Source: Planctomycetota bacterium (GTDB taxonomy: Bacteria; Planctomycetota; Phycisphaerae; UBA1845). Taken from it: 49,896 nucleotides of DNA. Positions within the stretch are counted from its first letter, which is position 1. Each line of letters starts with the position of its first letter. Position numbers and translations under genes: made by a program. This document shows, one piece after another, positions 26,825-49,887 of the stretch. Under the pieces are notes generated by a model. It saw only the letters and a program-made list of their open reading frames with translations, made no database searches and was not told the origin of the DNA. The stretch is taken from the NCBI GenBank assembly GCA_024280855.1, contig JAJRPG010000045.1, forward strand, positions 1-49,896, read 5' to 3'.

Positions 26825-28189
26825 ATGAATAGCCGTGTGAAAGTGAAAACATTTATAACAAAAATTACGCTAGGGACGATTTGCGTATTGTCTTGGCTGC
26901 CTGCTGATGTGCAAGCCGGTCGCGTGATTTTTGTAGACCAGAATGCTGACGCATTTATAAGAGATGGATTTTCCTGGTGTACCGCTTTCCTAGAGCTAGG
27001 CCCTGCATTAGACCTCGCCGCGAATGCAGGTGGGGAGATTTCAGAAATTCGCGTCGCTCAGGGAGTATACACGCCGCCGCCGACTATCTTACCAGACGCA
27101 CGGGACGCCACCGTGCAACTTATCAACGGCGTGGCTTTGATCGGTGGGTATGCCGGTTGTAGCGGTGCGATTCCCGACCAGCGAGACTTCTCGCGTTTTG
27201 AAACCACAATCTCCGGCGATCGGAACCGCGACGACGATCTACAGGCCTTAAGTGAAAACAGTTTTCACGTCGTCACCGGAGACGGCACTGACGCAACTGC
27301 GATCATTGATGGCTTCACCATTACCGCCGGATTCGCGCATGGAGACAGTCGATTCTCTTCACGTACCGGCGACCGCAACATCGGCGCGGGGATGGTCAAT
27401 GATGGTGGAAGCCCCACCGTGAGAAACTGTATTTTTCAAGGTAATGACGCTGACATCGGTGGGGGGATGAAAAACCGCAACAGCAGCGTAACAGTCATCA
27501 ACTCAATCTTTCGTGACAACGTCGCGGCATTTCTAAACGGTGGCGGCTTCGGCGGCGGCATGGACAATGAAAACAGTACGCCGACTATCATCAACTGCAC
27601 TTTTGTTCGCAATACTTCAGGCGGGACGGGTGGGGGCATGTGCGTTCTCGGTAGCGACGTCAACATCTACAACAGCATTTTCTGGGACAACGCAGACAGT
27701 GGCCCGCAAGACGAGACGGCCCAAATTGAAGTTAGCTTTGGTAGCACCGTCAACGTTTTGCATTCCTGCATTCAGGACATTGCCCCTAATGACGCTCTGA
27801 TCGCTTTCGGTGGGTCAGCTAATAACAACATCGATGATGATCCATTATTCGTGACGCTGCCTGACGACCTACACCTGACAACCGACTCGCCTTGTAGAGA
27901 TACTGGCAATCAAAAACTGCTCTCAGCAGACATCCTTACGGACCTTGATGGCCACGCCAGGGTATTGTGCGATGACGTGGATATGGGCGCGTATGAATTT
28001 GGCGTTGGCGATCAGAATTGTGATGCTGTGGTGAACCTCTTTGACTTTGCGTCTTGGCCTGTGTGCATGAATGGACCTGACTTTGGTGTCATACCTATGA
28101 CATGCCAGGCCTTTGATTATGCCACCGACCGCGACGTAGACCTGCTCGATTACGCCGCCTTTCAGCTTGCAATTACCGCAGCAAACTAA
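26825..28189 (+). CDS. Exported beta-helix protein with dockerin-like C-terminus
   Basis: 454 residues from the ATG at 26825 (no good ribosome site; the frame extends to a TTG at 26795). The signal peptide ends near V-Q-A-G. The mature start is V-I-F-V-D-Q-N-A-D, then R-V-A-Q-G-V-Y-T-P. Several rungs with G-G-G-M and V-R-N-C-I-F-Q-G-N, I-I-N-C-T-F-V-R-N and Y-N-S-I-F-W-D-N form a right-handed beta-helix. These rungs are followed by D-x-D-x-G-A-Y-E-F, the typical close of the helix in this family. The last 50 residues contain dockerin-like calcium loops (D-A-V-V-N-L-F-D-F-A and D-R-D-V-D-L-L-D-Y-A-A-F). It is the intact counterpart of the truncated gene at 128-1102 and probably a surface or matrix protein. 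Its stop overlaps the convergent gene by 17 bases. Confidence 0.85.
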   Translation: MNSRVKVKTFITKITLGTICVLSWLPADVQAGRVIFVDQNADAFIRDGFSWCTAFLELGPALDLAANAGGEISEIRVAQGVYTPPPTILPDARDATVQLINGVALIGGYAGCSGAIPDQRDFSRFETTISGDRNRDDDLQALSENSFHVVTGDGTDATAIIDGFTITAGFAHGDSRFSSRTGDRNIGAGMVNDGGSPTVRNCIFQGNDADIGGGMKNRNSSVTVINSIFRDNVAAFLNGGGFGGGMDNENSTPTIINCTFVRNTSGGTGGGMCVLGSDVNIYNSIFWDNADSGPQDETAQIEVSFGSTVNVLHSCIQDIAPNDALIAFGGSANNNIDDDPLFVTLPDDLHLTTDSPCRDTGNQKLLSADILTDLDGHARVLCDDVDMGAYEFGVGDQNCDAVVNLFDFASWPVCMNGPDFGVIPMTCQAFDYATDRDVDLLDYAAFQLAITAAN

Positions 28190-30581
28190 GAATGCTTGTT
28201 CGTTGATCCGTCCACAGCGCAATCTTTTGATCGCTACGCAAAGCAAGCCAGCCGTCTTTCGACTGCAACGCCTTCAATCGTTCATTCGAGTGAGCCATCA
28301 CAACATACTCAGCTGACAATCGCCCTGCGTTACCCGAATCAGTATAATCGACCGCGTCTTGTTTACTCCGCCCGACCATGCCCGCATCCTCAGCAAGGCG
28401 AGCGAGCAAGGGAATCAATTCAAGATATCGGTTTGAAACATGAAAGGCAATCACGCCATCAGGTTTTAGTTTTTGCCTGTACAGTTGCAGCGCTTCCCGT
28501 GTCAGCAGATGGGCTGGGATTGCGTCAGAACTAAACGCATCTAAAATTATTATATCAAAGGAGTCGTTCTCCTCCGTCGCCATTGTCAGCCGACCGTCAC
28601 CCAGGACCACATCGCACGTTCCCTGGCAGTCTTCAAGAAACGTAAAATAATTTGGATCACGCGCGATGCGTTCTACATCCGGGTCGATTTCATAAAACCG
28701 AAACGTCTGCCCTGTTTTTGCATAAGCCGCAATCGCACCAGCGCCCAAGCCAATGATGCCTACGCGCGTTTGGGGTTGTGTTGGCACAAGGGTTTTGAAT
28801 ACGTCTCCCAAAGGCCCGCTACGATGGTAATAGGCCAATGGCTCACTGCGCCTTGCAGCATCTGTAAACTGCATTCCGTGATTAGTGGTCCCATGAATAA
28901 GTTTAATCACGCCGCCATCTTGCTCTGCTACTACGCGCTTTACACCGAAAAAGTTTCGACAGGTCTCCAACGGTTGGCCTTGCTCAAGCGAACGATACGT
29001 CGCTATCGTCGCAAAAAACACGCCAAGTCCCAAGGCAAACCGAATCGGCTTTTCTTTGAATGCAAAGCAAACAAACGCCAGCGGCGCGAACAACGCAAAC
29101 CACACGGCCCACGGGGGTGTGTCCGTCGCATTGCGCAGGCCATAAGTTAATCCCGCCGCTAGTCCTGCAAGCAGCAGGGGATGCGTAACATCTTTCAAAT
29201 CAAACGCTCGTTCGTTCTTGTCTGTCGCTAACTTTGGCAATAGTAAACAAGCGAACATGACAGCCAATGGGTATTCCACAATGCTTGAGAAAATCGAAGG
29301 CGCAATCAACGCATTAAACACGCCGCCCATTACCCCGCCGAATGACATCCAAAGATAAAACTCGGTGAGATGATTAGCCGTCGGACGACTCTGAGCCAAA
29401 CGCCCATGACAAACCAGCGTCGCAACAAAAAACGCAGTCAGATGGATGGCTATGGTTATCCAATGCAGCTTGGGGAATCCTACAAACGTAAAGACAACCA
29501 ACGGAATCAGTAAGAAGGGCATTAGCGTAGAAGCACGAGACTGCGAGATGATCGGCTTGCGCGAAAACACAATTACGAAAGTCAACAGATACAGCGCAAG
29601 CGGCAGTACCCACAAAAGTGGAATGGGCGCTAAGTTACTGGTGATATGCGTCGTCACGCCAAGCATTAAGCTGGATGGTACAAATGCAGCAAAAATCCAA
29701 AAACCTCTGCTACGCCAATTGATGGACGCATCAGGCATTCGAAATTCATCAGGTTTTATTACTAACTTTTGAGTCGTTGCCGGTTGGCGGTTTATCATTA
29801 GCCAAGCACAAATCACTATCATGACAAGGAGAATGCCATAACCTATCCGCCATGCGTCGCTCTGTCCGGACAATGACATCATCGGCTCAAGCACAAGCGG
29901 GTAGGCCAGGAGCGCCAGCAAGCTACCCGCGTTGCTTGCGCCATATAAAAAATAAGGGTCTTTTGCATCAGGATGACCGCTGACTGCGAACCATTTTTGC
30001 AACAAAGGTCCAGTAGTCGATACCACGAAAAACGGCAAGCCCACTACCATCAGTAGTTTCATCAATAGCCAACCGACTGGATGCACGTCCGCCGATGGCG
30101 CATCTGAACCATTTATCACGATGGGCAACACCAGTAGTGGAAGGCAAAGTACCACGAGATGCGCAAGGCCTTGCTTTCGCACGCCCAGCCAAGACGTTGT
30201 AAAATGACTATACGCATATCCCGCTAGCAGCACCGCCTGAAAGAACAACATGCATGTATTCCATGTGGCCGGCGTTCCTCCGAAAAGAGGTAGAATCATC
30301 TTGCCGACCATAGGCTGAACCAAAAAAAGTAGCGTCGCACTGGCAAATAGAGTAATCGCAAAAGTCCACAAGATAGCCGACTGCGCCGGAGCGGCGACCG
30401 ATAACTCGCATTGAGACGAGCTAACCGAAACGTCACTCATCGCTGCAGAGAAAGAATCATCTCGCGTATCAGCACAGCTTGTTTCAGGTACGGTCTTGGA
30501 TGATGGGGGAGGCTGGACGTCGGGCGGCAATTTTGAACTTGGGGATATTGGTGTTGTCATATTGCCTATTGATCGGCCCAT
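28173..30581 (-). CDS. Membrane protein fused to a spermidine-synthase-like domain
   Basis: About 802 residues from the ATG at 30581 (a TTG at 30596 is also in frame). The N-terminal 50 residues are Pro/Ser-rich. About 12-14 helices follow in an MFS-like layout. The C-terminal 230 residues are a Rossmann methyltransferase-type fold with the nucleotide loop G-L-G-A-G-A, the acidic E-I-D-P-D-V and the motif I-L-D-A-F-S-S-D-A-I-P-A-H-L-L-T. This is the pattern of membrane-fused SpeE homologues. Aminopropyl transfer is possible, but these fusions are mostly uncharacterised. In this window the polyamine genes lie 17 kb away, so no operon link is visible. Its stop overlaps the beta-helix gene (28173-28189). 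Confidence 0.8.
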   Translation of the reverse strand: MGRSIGNMTTPISPSSKLPPDVQPPPSSKTVPETSCADTRDDSFSAAMSDVSVSSSQCELSVAAPAQSAILWTFAITLFASATLLFLVQPMVGKMILPLFGGTPATWNTCMLFFQAVLLAGYAYSHFTTSWLGVRKQGLAHLVVLCLPLLVLPIVINGSDAPSADVHPVGWLLMKLLMVVGLPFFVVSTTGPLLQKWFAVSGHPDAKDPYFLYGASNAGSLLALLAYPLVLEPMMSLSGQSDAWRIGYGILLVMIVICAWLMINRQPATTQKLVIKPDEFRMPDASINWRSRGFWIFAAFVPSSLMLGVTTHITSNLAPIPLLWVLPLALYLLTFVIVFSRKPIISQSRASTLMPFLLIPLVVFTFVGFPKLHWITIAIHLTAFFVATLVCHGRLAQSRPTANHLTEFYLWMSFGGVMGGVFNALIAPSIFSSIVEYPLAVMFACLLLPKLATDKNERAFDLKDVTHPLLLAGLAAGLTYGLRNATDTPPWAVWFALFAPLAFVCFAFKEKPIRFALGLGVFFATIATYRSLEQGQPLETCRNFFGVKRVVAEQDGGVIKLIHGTTNHGMQFTDAARRSEPLAYYHRSGPLGDVFKTLVPTQPQTRVGIIGLGAGAIAAYAKTGQTFRFYEIDPDVERIARDPNYFTFLEDCQGTCDVVLGDGRLTMATEENDSFDIIILDAFSSDAIPAHLLTREALQLYRQKLKPDGVIAFHVSNRYLELIPLLARLAEDAGMVGRSKQDAVDYTDSGNAGRLSAEYVVMAHSNERLKALQSKDGWLALRSDQKIALWTDQRTSILSLLR

Positions 30582-30733
30582 GACGATGAAAACCAAAGGC
30601 CTAAGCAGGTAGAATTAGCCTACATGCAATCGTCAGGCGAATTCGCTATATATCTGAAAGAATTACCGGACGCTCCAGAAGATTTTCGAGTCTGGAAACT
30701 GCCTGAGTAAAAACGTGTTTAAGATTTACCAAT

Positions 30734-46131: not shown

Positions 46132-46776
46132 TCAATTGACGTTAACACACTCACGCCGCTCTGTTGCGTCAGCCATGCAATCTTCCCCAAGAGAAACAGT
46201 GATATCGTTGCATAACTTGTCTAATTCTACTTTCGCCTGTTCCAGATTGGGACGTCGCTGATCATCGCAATCAGCCATCAAGACACCAAGCTTGTTCAAG
46301 GCTGCAGTGATGGCTTGTTTTTCCTGCAATCGCTGCGCTCGTAATTTGTCCATAGCCGTTGAGAATGTAGCAAAGAGTTCTTTTAGCTCATCTTTCTTGC
46401 GTAGCGAACGGACTTTAGGAATTCGATTCTCGCCAAGTTCGCCAAAATATTTTTCTAGTACGACTAGCGGACCACAAATCCGATGAGTCGCTAGTATACT
46501 CCAAACGCACACTCCCAACCCAGTCAGTGAAGCAAGACCCAATCCTGTTAGAAATGAAATAGTCGTGACTCTCGTATGTTCAGCTGCGGGAGTTATGGCG
46601 CGCAGTCGGGCCTGCTTATGCATGGCTCCAAATTGCACAGTGGACAGTATGGTACTCAAAACAAGTACCGACAGCGCTACAGATAAGGAGTATTTCCACT
46701 GAAACGATGAGTGCGTGACGTACTTGCGCCGCCGACTGCGAGATGTCGCAACTGGGTTCTGATTTGTATCTGACAT
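46132..46776 (-). CDS. Two-helix membrane protein with HAMP-like linker
   Basis: 214 residues from the ATG at 46776 (AGAGGA nine bases upstream). A basic N-terminus (R-S-R-R-R-K) and the first helix (L-S-V-A-L-S-V-L-V-L-S) are followed by a short external part and a second helix (L-G-L-A-S-L-T-G-L-G-V). After it comes a HAMP-like element: R-I-C-G-P-L-V-V-L-E-K-Y-F-G-E-L-G, then K-K-D-E-L-K-E-L-F-A-T-F. The C-terminal 80 residues are helical with charged coiled-coil periodicity. There is no methyl-accepting or kinase domain, so it is a truncated sensor-like protein. It precedes the small protein at 45754 and may be co-transcribed with it. Confidence 0.75.
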   Translation of the reverse strand: MSDTNQNPVATSRSRRRKYVTHSSFQWKYSLSVALSVLVLSTILSTVQFGAMHKQARLRAITPAAEHTRVTTISFLTGLGLASLTGLGVCVWSILATHRICGPLVVLEKYFGELGENRIPKVRSLRKKDELKELFATFSTAMDKLRAQRLQEKQAITAALNKLGVLMADCDDQRRPNLEQAKVELDKLCNDITVSLGEDCMADATERRECVNVN

Positions 46777-47121
46777 TTCAATTTTTCCTCTGCGGGACAT
46801 TCTGGTTCAAAGATTTATAGCGATTCATCACTCATTAAAACATTACGTTATAAAATCTCGGCTACAAAAATTTACTAAAATGAGATCGGACCTTAGCCGT
46901 CATCAAACCATAGGATTGTCCAAATAAAATCACTGAATTGATGTAGGCTGGTAAGTATTCAGTTTGAATATGTGAAACTGGTCACGATTGTGTCGTATTA
47001 TAGGAATGGTCCCAATACGTCGTTCGCATCGACCTGAATGCTGGTCATGCGATCTGCCTGGAGTTGAAAATAAGTGACAAAAAATTAAACCGCGCTAGAG
47101 CGGTAAATCAAAACTAGGTCT
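46777..47121. other. Spacer before the polyamine operon end
   Basis: About 345 bases between two minus-strand genes. It is AT-rich near 46800-46890, where a minus-strand promoter for the HAMP-like gene could lie (TATAAA at about 46816-46821, no clear -35). The far part contains the terminator of the polyamine operon at 47079-47104. No gene was seen. Confidence 0.5.
47079..47104 (-). terminator. Intrinsic terminator of the polyamine operon
   Basis: On the minus strand, arms ACCGC and GCGGT with a six-base loop are followed by TTTAATTTTTT. It lies 18 bases beyond the agmatinase stop. The stem is short (five pairs), so strength is moderate. Confidence 0.65.
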
Positions 47122-47991
47122 CTACGTCTGCGTCACATAACCAATCAGCTTGTACATCAATCTAGCCGCCAGATATTCAGTAACATGTTGACCCGGAATC
47201 GGCGATACTTCCACAATATCCGCAGCCACAATCTTTTTCTCCGCAGCGACCAACTGCAATATCCCCGTAATCTGATACCAGTCCAGCCCGCCAGGTTCCG
47301 GCGTACCCGTCCCCGGTGCAAGTGACGGATCAAACCCGTCAATATCAATCGTCACATAAACCGTATCCCCCAACTGATCCATCATGCGGTTTAGGCTATC
47401 CTCTTCAAACATGCACTCACGCGCGCTAATTGGCTTTATCTTATTCCTTTTCGCAAAGGTATGTTCTTCCAGGCTAACGCTACGAATCCCCACCGGCACG
47501 ACATTCGCCCCCAGCTCCAGCACCCGCCGCATCGCGCAGGCATGAGAAAATTTCGACTCTTGATATTTATCACGCAGGTCCAGATGAGCATCTATTTGCA
47601 ACACCGAAAGTTTTTTATGCTGGCTCATCACTGCCCGAACTAATCCAGACGTAATGCTATGTTCCCCGCCTACGCCAATCAAAAACTTGCCGTCATCAAC
47701 AACTCTTTTCGCCGCACGAAATATATCAGCGTGCATCGCCTCAGGACCAGACGCATTGGTCTCCAGCGGGTCCAGCGTCGCAATACCCACCTCATGATAT
47801 TCCCGCGCCAGTTCGTCGTCATAATACTCAACATGATGAGACGCAGCCATGATCGCAGAAGGCCCATTGCGACACCCCGTCTTAAAGGAAGCCGTCGCAT
47901 CATACGGAATCGGTAATATGACAAACTTAGCGCTATCGTAGCTGCTATGTTCAGCATCAATCGCAAAATAATTATTCGGTGTAGAAGTCAT
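47122..47991 (-). CDS. speB: Agmatinase (ureohydrolase)
   Basis: 289 residues, the usual length for the family. It hydrolyses agmatine to putrescine and urea with a binuclear Mn centre, in the cytoplasm. All ligands are visible: G-G-E-H-S (His111), D-A-H-L-D (Asp134, His136, Asp138) and T-I-D-I-D-G-F-D-P (Asp216, Asp218), then G-T-G-T-P-E-P-G-G. The short G-R-N-G-P style start (C-R-N-G-P-S-A-I) matches agmatinases. Arginase or another ureohydrolase cannot be excluded from motifs alone, but the upstream arginine decarboxylase supports agmatine. It is the last gene of the operon, 27 bases after the previous one. Confidence 0.93.
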   Translation of the reverse strand: MTSTPNNYFAIDAEHSSYDSAKFVILPIPYDATASFKTGCRNGPSAIMAASHHVEYYDDELAREYHEVGIATLDPLETNASGPEAMHADIFRAAKRVVDDGKFLIGVGGEHSITSGLVRAVMSQHKKLSVLQIDAHLDLRDKYQESKFSHACAMRRVLELGANVVPVGIRSVSLEEHTFAKRNKIKPISARECMFEEDSLNRMMDQLGDTVYVTIDIDGFDPSLAPGTGTPEPGGLDWYQITGILQLVAAEKKIVAADIVEVSPIPGQHVTEYLAARLMYKLIGYVTQT

Positions 47992-48018
47992 GATATATTC
48001 GCCAGGTAAGTGGGGCGA

Positions 48019-49155
48019 CTATCCAAAAAAGTCAGGATGGCTAGCCCGCAATTTCTCATTCTCATTCGCTGATTGACGAAGCGCGTCAGTCATCTCATCT
48101 ATTTTCGTAAACAATTTTTTCCCAGGCCGAGGTTTCGCACGACAAAGTGCATACTGCGCGATCAGCGGCAACGTCAGCGACGCGCACGAATACACCACCA
48201 CATTGTCCTTATAAGCATCCTTCAGCTTGCCCCAGCTCCTCGCTTCAGAAGGCGTCGCGCCAGACAGCCCGCCCCAATGCGGCGAGTCCGTCGTCAGCTG
48301 CAAAAAGTAATCATGCCCACCTTTCGACTCATCATAAAGAATCTGATGAAGCGTAGGCTGAGTCTGCAAGTAAAAATTCTTCGGAGACCCGCCACCAACC
48401 ACCACCACACCATTACGCTCAGCCGCACGAACAATAGCCGCTGTCTCAATCACATCTAACACCGGACTAAGCTGCACCGGCGACTTAAAAAGATGCGGCA
48501 TAATCAAATTCATACCAATCGACGAATCTCCAGGAGACGACGTATAAATAGGCACATCATGCGCAGCCGCGACAGCTACGAAAGATTTTTCAGGCTTGGC
48601 AGCCGTAGCTTGCACCGTCTTACCAAGATGATGATGAAGCGTCGCCGACGAAAATGGCTTGTCATATCCAATCTTTTCCACCGCATCAAGAATCACTCTG
48701 TCCGTCGCTTCAAGCGTGTCGTCATCATGAATAAAAACATCATAAATCCGCGCGATGCTCTTATCTGCCAGAATGTTGTCATCAATATCCGGGCTACCCT
48801 GAACCATGGGAAATTCAAATGGCCGATGCAGATCGTGATAAATGTTCGCCCCAGTAGACACGAAAAAATCTACAAAGCCTCGCTCAATCAACGTCTTGAA
48901 AATCCCGCTCATCCCAATCGGCGTCATCGCACCAGCCAACGTCATGCCCACCGTCGCACCTGAGTCGAGCATGCGCACATACAACTGCGCCGCCTCAGCT
49001 AACCGCCGGGCATTAAATCCGCTCTTCGCGTAAACGTTGTCAATTAAATCTGCAACCGCTTCGTTACCTTCTAACTCAAGCGGCTCAATCTGTGGCCCAT
49101 CCAGAAGGTCTTTCTTCTGCTGACACGGGTATGACTCATGACTATCTGAACTCAT
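48019..49155 (-). CDS. Deoxyhypusine-synthase-like enzyme (probable polyamine synthase)
   Basis: 378 residues from the ATG at 49155. Deoxyhypusine synthase folds use NAD and a catalytic Lys to transfer aminobutyl groups from spermidine. This protein keeps G-M-T-L-A-G-A-M-T-P (NAD site), the S-T-G-A-N segment, H-H-H-L-G-K, the Asp-rich P-G-D-S-S-I-G-M-N and S-E-A-R-S-W-G-K with Lys310 at the active position. Bacteria have no eIF5A, and relatives in bacteria are thought to make homospermidine or a related polyamine (inference from the family). Being between arginine decarboxylase and agmatinase genes fits a polyamine job. It is 29 bases downstream of the decarboxylase. Confidence 0.88.
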   Translation of the reverse strand: MSSDSHESYPCQQKKDLLDGPQIEPLELEGNEAVADLIDNVYAKSGFNARRLAEAAQLYVRMLDSGATVGMTLAGAMTPIGMSGIFKTLIERGFVDFFVSTGANIYHDLHRPFEFPMVQGSPDIDDNILADKSIARIYDVFIHDDDTLEATDRVILDAVEKIGYDKPFSSATLHHHLGKTVQATAAKPEKSFVAVAAAHDVPIYTSSPGDSSIGMNLIMPHLFKSPVQLSPVLDVIETAAIVRAAERNGVVVVGGGSPKNFYLQTQPTLHQILYDESKGGHDYFLQLTTDSPHWGGLSGATPSEARSWGKLKDAYKDNVVVYSCASLTLPLIAQYALCRAKPRPGKKLFTKIDEMTDALRQSANENEKLRASHPDFFG

Positions 49156-49184
49156 AGATTATTCTCGTTAATGGCAATGAAAAG

Positions 49185-49739
49185 TTAGAGGATCAAAACC
49201 GCAGCCGAAACCACAGTTGTCCACAGCCCGTTCTTATCGCCTTCCGCCGTTTGCGAAACCGCCCGTGTGCGAACCACTAGGCCCTTAGTTTTGTATTCGT
49301 CTTTGCGTTCGTTATAAGCTTTGTCCGGGTCCAAATCGATCCCTTGCGTCGTCGCTAACATAGACGCAGCCATATCTTCCACATAATCGCTCAACACGCG
49401 ATGAGTCATACCAAAGCCATGATGTTCACTGATATAGCCATGTTTGGTTTTATCACTCGGCAGCGCCAGTCCAATCCCCGCACACGTCAGCCGATTCGGC
49501 TCATTGGTCCGCGAGTCAGCCAGTACGCAAAAAACAATCTGCCCCGGCGTCAACATTTTCAGCCCGCGCTGTCGAGAAATAATGGTACAGTTCGGCGGGG
49601 AAATACTACTCACCCGAACTAAGTTGTACGAGGCTATGCCCGCATCGCGCAGGGCCTCTTCAAAGGATTGCAAGTTGTGTCGATGCTTACCGACGCCCTT
49701 AGTGAAAAACATTTTCTTGGGAACCAATTGATCGAACAA
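49185..49739 (-). CDS. pdaD: Pyruvoyl-dependent arginine decarboxylase
   Basis: 184 residues from a TTG at 49739 with GAGGAG eight bases upstream. It converts arginine to agmatine and CO2. The proenzyme self-cleaves between two serines to give a pyruvoyl cofactor; the site reads V-R-V-S-S-I-S-P-P-N (Ser44-Ser45). This matches the small archaeal/bacterial family, which is unrelated to the PLP-dependent SpeA. Other family features are A-G-I-G-L-A-L-P, G-Y-I-S-E-H-H-G and the C-terminal strands. It is the first gene of the operon and makes the agmatine used by the agmatinase. A putative promoter lies at 49794-49821. Confidence 0.93.
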   Translation of the reverse strand: MFDQLVPKKMFFTKGVGKHRHNLQSFEEALRDAGIASYNLVRVSSISPPNCTIISRQRGLKMLTPGQIVFCVLADSRTNEPNRLTCAGIGLALPSDKTKHGYISEHHGFGMTHRVLSDYVEDMAASMLATTQGIDLDPDKAYNERKDEYKTKGLVVRTRAVSQTAEGDKNGLWTTVVSAAVLIL

Positions 49740-49793
49740 CGACTATTCTCCTCAGATAACCAATACTGAAAAGCTCACAAAAACAGGCTGGGA

Positions 49794-49821
49794 ATTGTAT
49801 AGGGATTACGCCACGAAACAA
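49794..49821 (-). promoter_or_regulatory. Putative promoter of the polyamine operon
   Basis: On the minus strand, TTGTTT (49816-49821) and TACAAT (49794-49799) are separated by 16 bases. It gives a leader of about 50 bases to the TTG start at 49739. The -35 matches only TTG well. No riboswitch-like structure was seen in the short leader. Confidence 0.45.
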
Positions 49822-49855: not shown

Positions 49856-49887
49856 CCCCATTCTTTGCCTACTGGCAAAGGGTGGGG
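49856..49887 (-). repeat. Palindromic repeat family B, copy 3
   Basis: On the minus strand it reads CCCCAcc, CTTTGCC, AGTA, GGCAAAG, aaTGGGG, so it matches copy 1 (1405-1436) but in opposite orientation. The two lie close to opposite ends of the window and could recombine to invert the segment between them. The minus-strand reading frame through this hairpin towards pdaD is repeat-derived, not a gene. Confidence 0.75.

Follow-up and report, generated by a model that had tools for sequence, protein, structure and literature searches.

The three-gene operon

A stretch of 49,896 nucleotides (contig JAJRPG010000045.1 of the Planctomycetota assembly GCA_024280855.1), the whole of which is referred to as the window hereafter, was analyzed. 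On its minus strand, three open reading frames (ORFs) separated by gaps of 29 and 27 bases encode a pyruvoyl-dependent arginine decarboxylase (PvlArgDC), an enzyme resembling deoxyhypusine synthase (DHS) and an agmatinase (SpeB). We consider that this operon probably provides a route from arginine to homospermidine, in which the DHS-like enzyme would couple two putrescine molecules. The window's closest named relatives are metagenome genomes of planctomycetes, and several carry the label Phycisphaerae; the DHS-like proteins at two of these loci, L002 and L003, are 91% and 87% identical to that of the window, and the source genome is probably that of a planctomycete of the Phycisphaerae. The three genes are as follows.

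49185..49739, minus strand: PvlArgDC, 184 amino acids (aa), TTG start (PF01862, TIGR00286, alignments with PDB entries)
48019..49155, minus strand: DHS-like enzyme, proposed homospermidine synthase of the SpeY type, 378 aa (PF01916, PRK00770, residue mapping)
47122..47991, minus strand: agmatinase (SpeB), 289 aa (TIGR01230, PF00491, PDB 3pzl)

The decarboxylase scored 198 bits against the Pfam PvlArgDC model PF01862 (cut-off, 22.7) and 127.2 bits against NCBIfam TIGR00286, passing the cut-off of 106.95, while its score against the longer model PRK12398 (197.2) was narrowly under the cut-off of 207. It aligns with PDB 1n2m (E 4.2e-8) and 2qqd, and it carries the Ser-Ser site VSS(44-45)ISPP expected of the family, whose Ser pair we take to be the self-processing (cleavage) site. 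The agmatinase scored 239.6 bits against the Pfam Arginase model PF00491 (cut-off, 22) and 277 bits against TIGR01230 (cut-off, 174.3), which assigns it to the agmatinase family; its top PDB match was 3pzl, an agmatine ureohydrolase (E 2.7e-41). The motifs GGEHS, DAHLD and DIDGFDP, which are presumably metal-site motifs, were all found in it. Activity on agmatine rather than on another guanidine is predicted from the family match. The original prediction, made from the letters of the window, had proposed this gene order with these gaps as a self-contained polyamine module; the ORF coordinates and the family scans bear out the order, and the module holds.

Family and active site of the DHS-like enzyme

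Against the Pfam DS model PF01916, the DHS-like enzyme scored 256.1 bits (cut-off, 27), and this score together with the Lys in the motif SWGK places it in the DHS superfamily. Its best NCBIfam model was PRK00770 (NF001980, homospermidine biosynthesis protein; 414.7 bits), and its structure matches were 8put and 7cmc (probable DHS) and 1rlz (DHS). The catalytic Lys, which the original prediction had described as retained, is K310 (codon 48226-48228): the corresponding column is Lys in 113 of 113 DHS-like rows of the alignment and in both haloarchaeal DHS rows.

The residues of the window enzyme were also mapped onto human DHS, giving the pairs A76/N106, M215/D243, N260/H288, L297/D316, E304/E323 and W308/W327, of which A76/N106 rests on the alignment of this analysis. 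Human His288 is termed invariant and described as a proton acceptor/donor (PMC7226451). Its column is His in the two haloarchaeal DHS rows, while it is Asn in all of the 113 DHS-like rows, one of them from a Woesearchaeota assembly. This replacement suggests that the proton-transfer step in the Asn-bearing enzymes is probably served differently from that in human DHS.

Conservation of the gene trio

Among 80 related loci, a decarboxylase gene upstream and an agmatinase gene downstream of the DHS-like gene were found at 29; the remaining loci had the decarboxylase only (8), the agmatinase only (7) or neither (36). Where the DHS identity was at least 60%, all three genes stood side by side at 26 of 42 loci. 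Neighbors were sought with the proteins of the window as queries (E 1e-4) and were counted if encoded on the strand of the DHS-like gene and no more than 600 bases away. The trio counts are lower bounds, because the search was confined to homologues of the window proteins and the sequence of some loci stops a short way from the DHS gene. L102 (genome G001) has an identically ordered trio as well; its DHS-like protein falls outside the clade of the window and shows 37% identity in the best segment.

Clade and pocket residues

The tree was built from 69 of the 115 rows, including 35 of the 81 rows of the window's clade, here called clade A, and it gave long-branch warnings; the sequences of Anabaena SpeY and of CdmS (TTHA1570), the Thermus thermophilus enzyme that couples two agmatines (PMC10981699), lie outside its row set. 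In this tree, the window enzyme falls in clade A (support 100/100), apart from the group of PRK02492 (98/99), the model (NF002699) of the family that NCBI names as the caldomycin, or agmatine-homocoupling, synthase. Its score against PRK02492 was 180 bits, below the cut-off of 500. Clade A spans planctomycetes, Anaeromyxobacter, Ktedonobacteria and others, and the proteins of L108, L111 and L117, initially grouped as type C, fall within it. A third DHS-like type was seen in Planctomycetota (L103-L107, L109, L110 and L112-L116, with L115 divergent), with motifs such as STGALMAHGF, GGGVPRNWAQQ and SGCTYSEGVSWGK in the rows inspected; L103, the one member scanned, passes no NCBIfam cut-off.

Two positions of the pocket that was modelled for CdmS (PMC10981699) distinguish the groups when the CdmS numbering is transferred via the PRK02492 rows rather than via the CdmS sequence itself. 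The S67 column is Ala in 81 of 81 clade-A rows (A76 in the window) and Ser in 12 of 12 PRK02492 rows; the F204 column is Met (78) or Leu (3) in the 81 clade-A rows (M215 in the window) and Phe in all 12 PRK02492 rows. The window enzyme consequently lacks the pocket pair of caldomycin synthase. Four other CdmS positions, tried as discriminating ones, fail to separate the groups: L286 (Leu in 81/81 clade-A and 10/12 PRK02492 rows), E293 (Glu throughout), E136 (Asp 52, Glu 25 and Asn 4 of the 81 clade-A rows) and D143 (Asp in 81/81 clade-A rows). Judged by sequence, the pocket residues leave the substrate undecided, as they depart from CdmS at two positions and largely follow it at the others.

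Other polyamine genes in the genome

The genome of the window (4.56 Mb; completeness, 96.17) contains one DHS-family match. A search of this genome with the S-adenosylmethionine (AdoMet) decarboxylase (speD) model gave no match, and the carboxyspermidine decarboxylase (nspC) search gave a sole match that is a diaminopimelate decarboxylase; the absence of both, raised in the original prediction as a point to check, was thus observed. The carboxyspermidine route was rejected as a candidate: one of the three matches to the saccharopine-dehydrogenase model PF03435 is a 381-aa saccharopine-dehydrogenase-like ORF, which scores 34.1 bits against carboxynorspermidine synthase, where the cut-off is 800; the other two are an inositol-dehydrogenase-like ORF and DapB, and by score none of the three is a carboxynorspermidine synthase. 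SpeD/SpeE spermidine synthesis was rejected as well, with no speD match and with two matches to the spermidine-synthase model at 56.4 and 19.9 bits (speE cut-off, 249.55); the 56.4-bit match is a 288-aa ORF adjoining an MFS_SpdSyn-type ORF. Because the speD, nspC, PF03435 and speE searches gave no qualifying match, no spermidine route is evident among those tested. The 19.9-bit match is an 807-aa ORF of the fused MFS/spermidine-synthase type in the window itself (28173-30596, minus strand; NF037959, 60.2 bits with a cut-off of 40).

A eukaryote-like eIF5A homologue, which would speak against the original prediction, was sought with PF01287 in the window's genome and was not found; among 14 control genomes, 3 gave a match to the model. 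The genomes compared in this study are mostly metagenome assemblies, in which absence is weak evidence.

Agmatinase and AguA/AguB in related genomes

The partner genes were surveyed in 50 of the 80 named genomes, which were chosen and not random: 32 are without and 18 are with an agmatinase match in the DHS locus. PF04371 matched in 17 of the 50, and only the 6 matches at 339.9 bits or above were counted as strong AguA, the next score being 116.7 bits. An agmatinase over the cut-off was found in 1 of the 6 strong-AguA genomes versus 35 of the 44 others (Fisher p 0.005, with no kinship correction); that is, it was absent in 5 of 6 versus 9 of 44. The sixth genome, G177, carries an agmatinase of 180.6 bits in addition to AguA. 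In the other five, AguA has a neighboring AguB-like gene, which scores 252-315 bits against a cut-off of 410.25. These include the genomes of L032 and L060, in which the agmatinase model search gave no match at E 0.001 and AguA and the AguB-like gene are present; their DHS-like proteins are 67% and 64% identical to the window enzyme. The best AguB-model match in the window's genome scored 168.1 bits.

The DHS-like enzymes of the five genomes with AguA and without agmatinase fall into three parts of the tree, with L032 and L060 together, L063 and L072 together, and L044 apart from both pairs, and their ten aligned active-site positions are those of the window, except position 144, where four have Glu for Asp. 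That an AguA/AguB-like pair stands in place of agmatinase while the active site is kept favors putrescine as the common intermediate, and either the agmatinase or the AguA/AguB pair could feed the DHS-like enzyme with putrescine. A supposed fused AguA-AguB beside the DHS-like gene at L036 and L039 was rejected, as these ORFs match only 4Fe-4S models.

Among the planctomycete genomes with a PRK02492 enzyme, an agmatinase over the cut-off was found in 6 of 10 and was absent in G141, G110, G018 and G118. At L131 (G141) and L133 (G110), the DHS-like enzyme passes the NCBI cut-off for caldomycin synthase, yet AguA and AguB are present and no agmatinase is over the cut-off.

Proposed pathway and alternatives

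In the pathway that we favor, to which we assign a probability of about 65%, PvlArgDC would decarboxylate arginine to agmatine, SpeB would split agmatine into putrescine and urea, and the DHS-like enzyme, as an enzyme of the SpeY type, would condense two putrescines into sym-homospermidine, the likely product of the operon. In a mechanism modelled on that of DHS (PMC9117371, PMC7226451), NAD would oxidize one putrescine, the aminobutyl group would be held as an imine on K310, and this group would be moved to the second putrescine and then reduced by the NADH. sym-Homospermidine is given as the sole polyamine of at least four Planctomycetales in Table 8 of PMC4334474, where at least eight have data, and at least three more contain it together with other polyamines; these species are related to the window organism at the level of the phylum and lie outside the Phycisphaerae.

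Several observations weigh against this pathway. The PRK00770 score of the window enzyme remains under the curated cut-off of 450; among the five clade-A proteins scored, only that of L056 passes it (495.8), while those of the window, L060, L032 and L044 fail. For Planctomyces limnophilus, Table 8 of PMC4334474 gives putrescine and spermidine but no homospermidine, and Stieleria maiorica is reported without homospermidine in PMC12254169. The AguA threshold was set after the scores had been seen. None of the matches in 61 genomes passes the AguB cut-off, and since genomes that lack strong AguA can also carry AguB-like genes (246-279 bits), it is AguA that serves as the informative marker. Finally, G141 and G110 also have adjacent AguA and AguB with no agmatinase over the cut-off, so that the swap argument does not cleanly separate the putrescine and agmatine chemistries.

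Whether the enzyme uses putrescine or agmatine had been asked in the original prediction. The question proved to be a real one, both chemistries being described for the superfamily (PMC9992855, PMC10981699), and the evidence leans to putrescine without settling it. If agmatine were the substrate, the end product would be the same homospermidine, with the second and third steps in reversed order. Such coupling of agmatine is reported in the superfamily (PMC10981699), the SpeB gene immediately follows that of the DHS-like enzyme, and the pocket partly agrees with agmatine coupling: M215 and L297 are hydrophobic at the positions of human D243 and D316, as are F204 and L286 of CdmS, and E304, D144 and D152 match CdmS E293, E136 and D143 in kind. 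However, the window's clade is separate from PRK02492, with a score far under that cut-off, and Ala and Met stand for S67 and F204; moreover, in the L032 and L060 genomes, which have AguA and the AguB-like gene but no agmatinase-model match, caldomycin would need an undescribed deguanidination. We regard the agmatine order as rather unlikely. Its more specific form, in which the PRK00770-like clade would be a second, sequence-distinct group of agmatine-homocoupling enzymes, with SpeB acting last on guanidino intermediates and free putrescine bypassed, seems doubtful to a slightly greater degree; if true, it would fit the Planctomycetes without listed putrescine (PMC4334474, Table 8).

It is also conceivable that the enzyme passes either guanidinobutyl groups or the aminobutyl group of putrescine or spermidine to several amines, so that homospermidine and aminobutylagmatine arise together. 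High promiscuity in vitro has been ascribed to DHS (PMC7780104), and human DHS can take putrescine as an acceptor (PMC9117371), but CdmS, a related bacterial enzyme, is reported to use agmatine only (PMC10981699), and we consider such mixed use improbable. As for a true DHS acting on a protein lysine, the family and the catalytic Lys are common to DHS, yet PF01287 finds no eIF5A in the genome, the His288 position is N260, all five matching DHS equivalog models scored under their cut-offs, and the gene sits inside a polyamine operon. This identity is hardly credible and was rejected on the grounds of the missing eIF5A match and the lost His288.

Flanking signals and neighboring ORFs

Three further features, listed below, flank the genes.

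49794..49821, minus strand: probable promoter, TTGTTT (49821-49816), 16-base spacer, TACAAT (49799-49794); by eye, L002 and L003 have both hexamers at the identical distance
49740..49753, minus strand: ribosome-binding region GAGGAGAATAGTCG preceding the TTG start of the decarboxylase; by eye, L002 and L003 likewise have GGAGAA and a TTG start
47089..47104, minus strand: weak terminator-like hairpin of 5 pairs followed by a T-run (terminator scan)

The promoter is a fair candidate. Its likeness among the window, L002 and L003 is moderate evidence, because these three are closely related and shared descent alone could preserve the hexamers. The promoter of the original prediction thus gains from this likeness, while a consensus promoter scan upstream of the decarboxylase reported none. 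The terminator predicted with it is not supported beyond chance: the scan counted 2 terminator-like sites in the region versus 3.5 (standard deviation, 1.9) in shuffled sequences, and no counterpart of the hairpin was seen by eye in L002 and L003. Roughly 120 bases before the decarboxylase start, an inverted repeat, CTTTGCC-AGTA-GGCAAAG, occupies 49863-49880 of the window. At the other end, immediately past the operon, a minus-strand ORF of 222 aa (46132-46800) has no match in Pfam.

Relation to known systems and implications

Clusters of a SpeD-family pyruvoyl arginine decarboxylase gene with speB and speY are already in print (PMC10407285), and SpeY is described as producing homospermidine from putrescine (PMC9992855). 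The window operon resembles these speDA-speB-speY clusters in joining a DHS-like gene to genes for an agmatinase and a pyruvoyl arginine decarboxylase, with homospermidine as the proposed product; it differs from them in that its decarboxylase belongs to the PvlArgDC family and is not a SpeD homologue, and in that we infer its substrate from sequence. The operon is best filed with the known SpeY-type homospermidine operons. A literature search for a decarboxylase/DHS/agmatinase operon found, among the papers that it listed, no title naming the PvlArgDC trio, and we do not assert that this trio is absent from the literature. On caldomycin and agmatine homocoupling, a single paper was found in the collection searched.

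Three other systems are comparable in part. CdmS with its partner ureohydrolase TtSpeBap (PMC10981699) shares the DHS family, the catalytic Lys, Leu at human D316 and Glu at E323 with the window enzyme, which lies, however, outside the PRK02492 group and has the two exchanged pocket residues. Human DHS (PMC7226451, PMC9117371) shares PF01916 and has its Lys329, Trp327, Glu323 and Asp238 matched by counterparts in the window enzyme, whereas His288, Asp243 and Asp316 are replaced by Asn, Met and Leu in the window, whose genome has no eIF5A match. The bacterial homospermidine synthase of the Blastochloris viridis type (PMC4725965) has the same proposed overall reaction, from two putrescines to homospermidine with NAD as the cofactor, but is described as non-homologous to SpeY (PMC9992855).

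The three-gene system allows the putrescine and agmatine routes to homospermidine to be told apart through one enzyme. In addition, the name of PRK02492 is called into question: of the 10 planctomycete genomes that encode a PRK02492 enzyme, 4 are without an agmatinase over the cut-off, and 2 of those 4 have AguA and an AguB-like gene. Either the members of PRK02492 would not be uniformly specific for agmatine, in which case the NCBI name may have been spread too widely, or AguA would act on caldomycin.

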